From: an uncultured Alcanivoracaceae bacterium
GTDB taxonomy: Bacteria > Pseudomonadota > Gammaproteobacteria > Xanthomonadales > Marinicellaceae
Length of the DNA: 36,968 bases
Reading direction: 5' to 3'
NCBI GenBank assembly: GCA_913061105.1
Contig: CAJXVJ010000006.1
Coordinates: 1 to 36,968, forward strand
This document shows positions 33,613-36,810 of the stretch, in pieces; the first letter of the stretch is position 1; every line of letters begins with the position of its first letter. The notes below the pieces were generated by a model. The model made no database searches. It was not told the origin of the DNA and saw only the letters and a program-made list of their open reading frames with translations. The position numbers were made by a program, and so were the translations under genes.

Positions 33613-35025
33613 TCACTGAATTTTGACATAGTTTCCACTTTCTCCCTGAAAGTAGGTTTTTCCCTCGTGGGTAATAAATGCCATGGTTGCCACTGACTCG
33701 TCCACGTAGCGAAAATGTGTGTTATTAACGGCATAAATGGATTGCTTGAATCCTGTGTTGTATTGAATAGCCAACACTCCATCATGATTAATAATTTCAA
33801 ATGCTACTGCATTTGGTTGTGAGCGTTTTTTAAAACTATTGGTCAATTTTTTGTACTTGCCAATGTTTTTTGCAAGTTCTTTGTCGCTTAATTTAAGTCT
33901 TAATGGATAGTTTGGCTTTGGTAAATCTTTAGTGATATGGTTTTCTATCACATTGCGCATTTGTTTTAGTGTTCCATGTTGAAAGGCATTTATCATCACG
34001 TAAAAGGCCAATCCTGATTCTTTATTATAACCGTACCGTGACAAGTAGCCATCGGCATCTCCACCGTGCCCATAAAAGTGATAACCATTTGTTTGCCATT
34101 GGTAGTTACCCAATCCATAACCATAGGTTAATTTAGACTTGCCTGCCAATGTTGTTTTGGGTGTTTCTATTCGAGTTATATCATCTGTACTAAGAAATTG
34201 CTTTTTATTGTGCATGCCATTATTGAGCATCAGTTGTAAGAAATTCACCATGTCTTTGGTGTCCGTATTTATTGCAGCAAACGGGCGGTAAATATTATGC
34301 CAATAAGGAATGGGTGTTTTGCCATCTGTGTTATAGCCTTTTATTAAACTTTCACTAACGTATTTGTCTAGGAATAAAGTTGATGAAGGCATTCCTAATG
34401 GCTTGAACACATACTCATGCATTAAATGTTCGTACTTTTTACCACTGGCTTTTTCTAATGCTAAGCCCAAATATCCTGCACCTACATTGCTATAAGATGA
34501 ATGCATGCCAGGCTGCCATTGGCTCACATGATTACCTAACTTTAAATCCATGGCCTGATCAATAGATATACTTTGGCTTTTGTTGTAATTCCATTCGGCT
34601 CGAGATAATTCAGGTAAACCAGCAGTATGCTCTAATAATTGTTCCAGGGTAATTTCTGTATTGAAATTGTTTTCAATGTATTTTTTCTTGAGATAATAAT
34701 TAAGTGGTTTTGTTAAATCAATTATGCCAGCTTGTTGCATTTTCATGGCCAGAATGGCCGCAAAGGATTTACTTATGGAACCAATCCTAAACATATTAGA
34801 ATGATTAAAAGGCATGTCACTTTCCCAACTGCCTGTGCCTAAATACGATTGGGAGATAACTTTATCATTATCGACGATAATAACTAGTGCGGCACTGACT
34901 TGGTTTTCTTTTCTTATTTGATCAATTAATTTAATAAAAGAATCAGATGAAATTGCAGAAAATGGTAATATTAAAAGAACAAATATAGATAGAAAAAATA
35001 AGGATTTTAAGTTATGAAAATTCAT
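33613..35025 (-). CDS. Exported serine hydrolase, class C beta-lactamase/S12 type
   Basis: 470 residues with a signal peptide (about residues 1-26, ending SAISS). The active-site motif SxxK is S83-I-S-K86 in RIGSISKSFAA. The second motif is Y178-S-N180, and the third is HGG at about 320-322, replacing KTG. LLEHTAGLPEL is another family hallmark. A C-terminal lipocalin-like or uncharacterised beta domain of about 110 residues starts near residue 360. Members include DD-peptidases, D-aminopeptidases, esterases and AmpC; substrate is not predictable, and true beta-lactamase activity is unlikely from motifs alone. Its promoter side faces the Y-shaped repeat element at 35047. Confidence 0.92.
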   Translation of the reverse strand: MNFHNLKSLFFLSIFVLLILPFSAISSDSFIKLIDQIRKENQVSAALVIIVDNDKVISQSYLGTGSWESDMPFNHSNMFRIGSISKSFAAILAMKMQQAGIIDLTKPLNYYLKKKYIENNFNTEITLEQLLEHTAGLPELSRAEWNYNKSQSISIDQAMDLKLGNHVSQWQPGMHSSYSNVGAGYLGLALEKASGKKYEHLMHEYVFKPLGMPSSTLFLDKYVSESLIKGYNTDGKTPIPYWHNIYRPFAAINTDTKDMVNFLQLMLNNGMHNKKQFLSTDDITRIETPKTTLAGKSKLTYGYGLGNYQWQTNGYHFYGHGGDADGYLSRYGYNKESGLAFYVMINAFQHGTLKQMRNVIENHITKDLPKPNYPLRLKLSDKELAKNIGKYKKLTNSFKKRSQPNAVAFEIINHDGVLAIQYNTGFKQSIYAVNNTHFRYVDESVATMAFITHEGKTYFQGESGNYVKIQ

Positions 35026-35046: not shown

Positions 35047-35336
35047 TATATTAACCTTGCTAGGTAATATCGCTCACTCAGTCGTCGTGTGTTTGTTCAT
35101 TCACGAGTTATTTTTGTGAAGTCATAGTCGCTCTACAACAAATAAAAATATCGAAGTGATGCGCGAACACACGGCGACCTATCTTTTTAATATCATATGG
35201 TTAGGGATGACATATGAAAAATATCTCTGCGTTACAATTTGCAATTAATGGAATGACCATTGAGTAAAAATTAAGCCTTGATATATTCTTCATATGTCAT
35301 CCTGAGTGTGCGATATTATCTAGCAAGGTTAATATA
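35047..35336. repeat. 290-bp inverted-repeat element with Y-shaped fold (MITE-like)
   Basis: Outer arms 35047-35081 and 35302-35336 are reverse complements at 33 of 35 positions. Inside are two further hairpins of equal 98-nt span. The first is 35081-35178 (GTCGTCGTGTGTT against its complement near 35165-35178, imperfect arms of about 39 nt). The second is 35205-35302 (perfect 14-bp GGATGACATATGAA, longer with mismatches). TATA at both ends would allow a TA target duplication. It lies between divergent genes in gene-free 35026-35418, and I saw no ORF of its own. It is either a MITE or a large structured regulatory element. Confidence 0.8.
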
Positions 35337-35418: not shown

Positions 35419-36810
35419 ATGAAATTATATTTAACCTTAATAATAGTGTTTTTTTTGAGCACTAATACTTCTGCTCAAAAAAATAACTATAGGGTTCAAG
35501 TTGATCACATTAATAAAACATTGCATATAGAAACCTGCTTTAAGCAAGCACCTGATTATTTACACACCATTTCAAGAAATGCTGAAAAACTCATACAAAA
35601 CATTAAATGGAATGATAAGCCAATCCAACACCGCAACCGTTACATAAATCTACCCGATGGTAAACAAGGTTGTTTGACTTACAGTGTCAACAGTAAGCAA
35701 CAAAGAAGTCGCCTGAATAATAGTTCCATAAACAAACAACATCCGCATGATACTGTTTTAGAAATTTCAGATTGGTTATGGAAAAGCGACGTTTACAACC
35801 AATACTCAGAGGTAACCATAACATTTTTACACGACACTGGTGTAAATGTCTCAGCCCCATGGCCATTAATTTCTCGAAACACAAACAAAACAGAATACTT
35901 TGTTAAATATACACCTGATAGTTGGGTTGGCTATATTGGTTTTGGCATATTTGATATATTGGAATTAGACATATCTAATAGTAAATTCAACTTGGCCATT
36001 ATCAATGGTAATAATTCATTTAATAAAGACAGCATCACAGATTGGATTCAACAAATGACAGGTGCTGTGGCTAGCATTGGCAATGGTTTTCCAATAAAAG
36101 AAGTGCAAGTGATGGTGCTATTGATCAAAGGAACCAGAGGCACTGTGCCTTGGGGCCAGGTTAATAGACATGGTGGTTCGGGTGTATTCTTTGTGGTTAA
36201 CCCTGATAAATCACACCGAGAACTAATCAGTGATTGGACCGCTGCACATGAGTTTAGCCACTTACTATTACCGTATACTCCAGATGACCGTTGGTTATCT
36301 GAAGGATTTGCCAGCTATCATCAAAACATTTCAAGGGCAAGGACAGGTTTATTAGATGAAAAAAGTACATGGGAAAAATTATTAGCTGGTTTTGAACGGG
36401 GTCAAAAAACAGCAAACAAATACAATGCACCCACATTAAAATATGCAAAAGGCCGAAACAGAATGCAAATGTATTGGGGTGGTGCTGTTATAGCATTAAA
36501 AGCCGATGTCGCTCTTCAACAAGCAACCAATGGGCGCAATAGTTTATCTCAAGCATTAGATAAATTAAGTGATTGCTGCTTAGATTCTTCTCAAGAGTGG
36601 ACAGCAAGAGAAACTTTTGCACGTTTGGATAAAATTACCAATACCCGGATTTTTTCTCAATTGTATTACCAAGAAGTCAAAAAACAAAGCTATCCACACT
36701 ATCAACAGATGTTAAAAGAATTGGGTATCATTCAAAAATACAATGGCCACATAATATTGGATGATTCGGCCGAAAAAGCCCATATCCGTAAAAAAATTAT
36801 TAATGGTTAA
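35419..36810 (+). CDS. Exported gluzincin-like metallopeptidase (M1/M61-like)
   Basis: 463 residues from ATG 35419, chosen because it begins a clean signal peptide (MKLYLTLIIVFFLSTNTSAQ). A longer in-frame reading from a TTG at 35278 would run out of the repeat element and is rejected. Zinc motif H277-E278-FS-H281 (AAHEFSHLL) is followed by W-L-S-E295-G-F-A-S-Y, the gluzincin third-ligand block. Only 13 residues separate His281 from Glu295, against 18 in classical M1 enzymes. The N-terminal 200 residues are beta-rich, as in M1/M61 proteins. PWGQVNRHGGSGVFFV (245-260) may contribute substrate-binding backbone. The C-terminal helical part resembles M61. Peptidase activity is likely, and specificity is unknown. 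No clear Shine-Dalgarno is seen. Confidence 0.82.
   Translation: MKLYLTLIIVFFLSTNTSAQKNNYRVQVDHINKTLHIETCFKQAPDYLHTISRNAEKLIQNIKWNDKPIQHRNRYINLPDGKQGCLTYSVNSKQQRSRLNNSSINKQHPHDTVLEISDWLWKSDVYNQYSEVTITFLHDTGVNVSAPWPLISRNTNKTEYFVKYTPDSWVGYIGFGIFDILELDISNSKFNLAIINGNNSFNKDSITDWIQQMTGAVASIGNGFPIKEVQVMVLLIKGTRGTVPWGQVNRHGGSGVFFVVNPDKSHRELISDWTAAHEFSHLLLPYTPDDRWLSEGFASYHQNISRARTGLLDEKSTWEKLLAGFERGQKTANKYNAPTLKYAKGRNRMQMYWGGAVIALKADVALQQATNGRNSLSQALDKLSDCCLDSSQEWTARETFARLDKITNTRIFSQLYYQEVKKQSYPHYQQMLKELGIIQKYNGHIILDDSAEKAHIRKKIING

Follow-up and report, generated by a model that had tools for sequence, protein, structure and literature searches.

Genomic locus and structure of the element

The window, i.e., the whole stretch of 36,968 nucleotides analysed here, contained a 290-bp element at positions 35047-35336, in the divergent intergenic region between two genes. 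The gene on its left (33613-35025, negative strand) encodes a serine hydrolase with a Pfam Beta-lactamase match, and the element begins 22 bp from its ATG. The gene on its right (35419-36810, positive strand, ATG at 35419) encodes a putative metallopeptidase 64% identical to a relative in genome G006 and without a Pfam match. The orthologous divergent gene pair was present in G006 (57.6% and 63% amino acid identity) with no element between the genes. The first-pass annotation had proposed to compare empty sites for TA duplication; at this locus the flanks were too diverged to read the TA state.

Re-measurement of the outer arms gave the same values as the annotation, i.e., inverted repeats at 35047-35081 and 35302-35336 with 33/35 bp matched, and confirmed the two separate hairpins of 98 nt each located inside them (35081-35178 and 35205-35302). 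A three-way junction was predicted from the positive and the negative strand alike. As RNA, the positive strand had a minimum free energy of -124.1 kcal/mol (z -14.9; 0/200 shuffles equally low) and the negative strand of -106.4 kcal/mol (z -11.6 versus shuffles), both far below the shuffles. This fold does distinguish the element from simple MITEs, as had been pointed out. The transposon proper probably corresponds to 35051-35332 (282 bp), with TA dinucleotides at 35049-35050 and 35333-35334. No ORF of at least 80 aa was confined to these 282 bp, indicating that there is no transposase gene inside. The features of the element are the following (classes and models are described below):

35047-35081, positive strand: left outer arm, 33/35 versus the right arm; its outer ~25 bp match the ends of an IS630-type element in the relative G009, as read at G009 contig ends
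35049-35050, no strand: flanking TA on the left, presumed target dinucleotide (TA on both sides in 27/32 class A copies)
35051-35332, no strand: entire class A element, TTAACC...GGTTAA, 282 bp; related copies in G009 (88% identity) and G007 (77%)
35081-35178, negative strand: hairpin 1, a module copy in inverted orientation and partly eroded; the homologous G009 hairpin matches model R1 on the strand opposite to hairpin 2
35179-35204, no strand: AT-rich central linker separating the modules
35191-35203, positive strand: IHF-like site TATCATATGGTTA, one mismatch versus WATCAANNNNTTR
35201-35306, positive strand: hairpin 2, a complete module in sense orientation (R1 109.6 bits, R2 95.5 bits)
35225-35234, positive strand: mispaired internal loop, 5' side CTCTGCGTTA, conserved across modules
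35247-35261, positive strand: apical hairpin of module 2, AATGGAATGACCATT
35273-35282, positive strand: mispaired internal loop, 3' side AAGCCTTGAT, conserved across modules
35302-35336, negative strand: right outer arm, inverted-repeat match to the left arm
35333-35334, no strand: flanking TA on the right

Copies, ends and mobility

When 61 genomes were searched with the element by BLAST, near-full copies were recovered from two genomes of the same genus, G009 (88% identity, two sites) and G007 (77%). Further genomes held incomplete or variant copies; the dispersed copies had different flanks. R1, a covariance model of hairpin 2, matched 27/33 genomes of the family. There were 77-80 matches in each of G015 and G017, and about ten in the window's own genome; these numbers are not element counts, since a near-palindromic hairpin can match on both strands. 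The element is not single-copy: the search for further copies suggested by the first-pass annotation yielded many, in its own genome and in relatives.

TA was present on both sides of 27/32 class A copies with TTAACC/GGTTAA ends, in a search that did not require it, and the terminal inverted repeats (the arms) were present in most copies. Judging from these flanks, TA would be duplicated on insertion. G009, G121 and G394 carried IS630-type transposases bounded by MITE-like ends: the IS630-type end TTAACCCGGCAGGAAAGTAG and the MITE end TTAACCCGGCAGGTATGTAG are from the same genome, G121, and the G394 IS630-type end GTACATCGACCAGTTTATATTGAC resembles the G273 MITE end GTACATCAACCACTTTATATTGTC. 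Searches for a DDE_3 transposase were negative in the genome of the window and in G015 and G017, draft assemblies being prone to collapse repeats. The window element is a non-autonomous IS630/Tc1-mariner-type element (MITE), TTAACC...GGTTAA between TA dinucleotides, and its mobility is well supported. It belongs to what is apparently a large, undescribed family of tiny jumping DNA spread through many gammaproteobacteria; no description of this family emerged from the literature searched, although that does not prove that none exists.

Other arrangements were observed in the same genomes. An element with one hairpin and AGAGGCTCTGA-type ends lay nested between the two modules of a class A element (L119, G015:C32:2070-2975), and a derivative of class A adjoined a class B element at a common TA-containing junction (L205, G320:C1:164336-167440, positions 1432-1893). 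Many G009 contigs (C17, C22, C23, C41, C93, C100, C105 and others) ended ~100 bp inside the IS630-type element, which is thus multicopy and fragments the assembly. Within one genus, G015 and G017 had 77-80 module matches and the nearly complete G013 had none, a contrast that suggests a recent burst or a loss. The window's own genome carried another two-hairpin element with different ends, GGTATCTCTCTACAATAG (L123, G000:C72:5083-5990). Short derivatives consisting only of arms were located at L016 (G002:C107), L030 (G009:C48) and L047 (G003:C182), the first two with the same flanking genes in the two genomes. G320 presented a multicopy IS630-type element (L247, L249, L252, L255 and L256) with ends TTGAGCCTTGCATAAATAGTGAAC, unlike those of either MITE class. 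Exact matches to the end pattern in genome contigs (9 stretches, unrelated taxa) were taken as chance. Of five representative elements compared with plasmids by BLAST, four had no match and one had a partial match in a Halomonas replicon.

Element classes and distribution

The elements fell into two classes. Those of class A had TTAACC ends, a length of about 280 bp and a gap of 72-78 nt between module cores, whereas those of class B had other TA-flanked ends (e.g., GTGTAGTG and GTGGGCCATG), often in CTAG, a length of about 264 bp and a gap of 52-58 nt. The same module pair was found behind several unrelated IS630-type ends. The linkers also differed: predicted sites matching the IHF consensus were present among the 27 non-redundant class A linkers (8 exact and 11 with one mismatch, versus 0.06 and 0.66 in shuffles), whereas class B linkers had no IHF consensus and showed a C(UNCG)G-type mini-hairpin in 33/38, some overlapping entries included.

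The R2 model matched 86/200 genomes of the order, 85/274 sampled genomes of the class (about 31%, 71 genera) and 51/249 genomes in a sample of the phylum, among them 28 from a single family of another class. That the first of these classes is Gammaproteobacteria was judged from the gene content, the Halomonas match and the genome sampling. Searches of 20 loci against Rfam gave no family at gathering score, with only weak sub-threshold matches in the window. A relation to integron attC sites was dismissed by inspection only. The gene contexts of the copies were tandem (15), convergent (13), divergent (8) and inside a gene (1), i.e., no clear position relative to genes, as judged from crude ORF calls and with no background.

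The twin-module core

Full elements contained two modules of ~105 nt in divergent orientation: the 96 right modules were all on the positive strand and the 89 left modules all on the negative strand, with one exception. To our knowledge, ordinary MITEs have no such core of paired divergent hairpin modules. Module length departed little from ~105 nt, even among genera that differ widely in GC content.

In ten variant copies, retrieved either through BLAST or through their ends and aligned with MAFFT without a structure model, the layout was kept and the stem sequences differed: 93.8% of the cells were paired, and double changes occurred in 19/32 pairs (59 cells, versus a shuffled mean of 18.3 and 5-14 in slid controls). 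An alignment of 33 modules, which leans to the R1 fold because many of them were found by R1, had double changes in 32/36 pairs (349 cells versus 116.5 shuffled and 92-165 in slid controls). Stem sequence is thus free, and pairing is maintained by compensatory change on both sides of the stem. The first-pass annotation had held that many TA-flanked copies would mark a MITE and one conserved, covarying copy a regulatory RNA; dispersed TA-flanked copies and strong compensatory change were both found here, and the single conserved locus was not.

The nearly invariant bases were those of the mispaired loop, CTGCGTT/GCCTTG. The motif recurred, flipped, across the inner stem, with CTTG in 47/94 and C[TCG]GCG in 41/94 module representatives (2.2 and 3.3 in shuffles). 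In consensus stems of 12 clusters, 158/168 pairs (94%) were Watson-Crick; in sense orientation the mismatches included 0 G.T and 8 C.A, the clusters being partly related. On individual copies, a first count gave more A.C than G.T, a bias that became weak when further copies were counted and conserved positions excluded.

Possible reasons for the conserved fold

We favour, with a probability of about 0.7, an IS630-type MITE moved in trans, with a conserved twin-hairpin core that would act in cis as folded DNA together with IHF. The data in its support are the signs of mobility, the shared ends, the conservation of the fold, the loop motif and the match to the IHF consensus. Given the shared ends and the TA, an IS630 transposase would recognise the ~25-bp ends, move the element in trans and insert it at TA. 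The core would act in cis at the DNA level, its hairpins extruding as cruciforms or folding on single-stranded DNA, and in class A IHF may bend the AT-rich centre between the hairpins and thereby bring the two ends together for transposition. We infer DNA folding and IHF bending as first choice from the Watson-Crick character of the consensus stems (158/168), the symmetric layout and the central IHF-like site. If the core served the spread of the element itself, this would fit the dispersal without a preferred gene context and the conservation across different ends. The existence of one-module and arms-only derivatives argues that the twin core is not strictly needed for insertion, and the lack of an IHF consensus in class B linkers also speaks against this proposal. 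That the fold itself, as folded DNA with IHF, helps transposition has in our judgement somewhat less than an even chance.

A cruciform alone would not predict the 0 G.T versus 8 C.A bias, which hints at one strand, either RNA or single-stranded DNA. A broader reading, which we hold tentatively, is that compensatory evolution, in Gammaproteobacteria and in a second class, has preserved a single folded twin-module nucleic acid, which uses the ends of several different IS630 subfamilies; the folded strand, DNA or RNA, would be recognised by some factor through the repeated CTGCG/CTTG loop, and the element would be a structured selfish element with exchangeable ends and not a decayed IS.

The core could instead be a structured RNA: read-through transcripts would fold and bind a protein or protect or regulate transcripts, the inverted twin working in either direction of insertion. 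The strong covariation of the stems, G.U on one strand only in the consensus stems and the UNCG-type hairpin of class B linkers point this way, but that loop is not decisive, since on the other strand it reads as what we take to be a stable DNA GNA loop. Given the few wobbles in stems that are 94% Watson-Crick, the little strand bias in individual copies once conserved positions are left out, the lack of an Rfam family at gathering score and insertion sites without clear position relative to genes, we regard this as unlikely.

Alternatively, the arms may be complementary through template switching (quasipalindrome correction), the motifs being ordinary double-strand protein sites and the fold functionless. 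Copying of one arm from the other would be expected to give near-perfect Watson-Crick stems and roughly neutral-looking single-copy mismatches, and would thus explain the stems; it fails for the retained mispaired loops, since correction should erase a CTGCG/CTTG loop that stays unpaired on both arms and is repeated flipped in the module. The steady module length of about 105 nt, despite wide differences in GC between genera, also argues against this, and we consider it improbable.

The inverted hairpin pairs resemble BIMEs, but a REP/BIME-like element mobilised by RAYT or another HUH (Y1) transposase is very improbable: searches for Y1_Tnp found none in G015 or G017, the genomes with 77-80 module matches, and the ends and TA fit IS630. 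Hardly credible is a regulatory role, as an element or as an RNA, dedicated to the two adjacent hydrolase genes, one of the options raised in the first-pass annotation: despite the location between divergent genes, close to the start codon of one of them, and the weak promoter-like matches in or near the element (6 versus 3.6 expected), such a role is unsupported, because the compensatory changes run across a mobile family and not one locus, the orthologous pair in G006 has no element and other copies adjoin unrelated genes.

MITEs are usually viewed as decayed insertion sequences whose middle is unimportant. In the window family the middle is the part best conserved in structure, occurs in about 31% of the sampled genomes of the class and is common to elements with unrelated ends; it is thus testable with this core whether folded DNA or RNA, and IHF, aid the spread of small transposons. 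A covariance model would also let annotators spot many unannotated copies.

Comparison with known systems

The bcr1 repeat of Bacillus cereus is a dispersed structured repeat with reported compensatory changes, from a Gram-positive host, shorter and with other termini. BIME/REP systems with RAYT, in which short REPs are linked to Y1 transposases, share the alternating hairpin orientation and the many copies, whereas Y1 was not found in the highest-copy genomes of the window family (PMC2817692). QMITE1 of Coxiella burnetii, as far as described in the part of the source consulted, is a structured MITE of 300-400 bp with a potential IHF site, like the window family, and with transcripts; it differs in having variable 2-3 nt direct repeats instead of TA, and that part describes no two-hairpin core (PMC5896051). 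Correia/NEMIS of Neisseria (about 107 or 155 bp, the 155-bp form binding IHF) are likewise TA-ended MITEs with a long fold and a link to IHF, which here is a consensus match in class A only, but they are listed for Neisseria and no twin inverted modules are described (PMC2229807). RUP of Streptococcus pneumoniae (107 bp, 9-bp TIRs, one species) is thought to be moved in trans by an IS630-family element and resembles the window family as a small repeat with TA at its ends and ends matching those of an IS630-family element; unlike RUP, the window family has a twin-module core in elements of 264-282 bp, with stems that covary across a class (PMC2229807).
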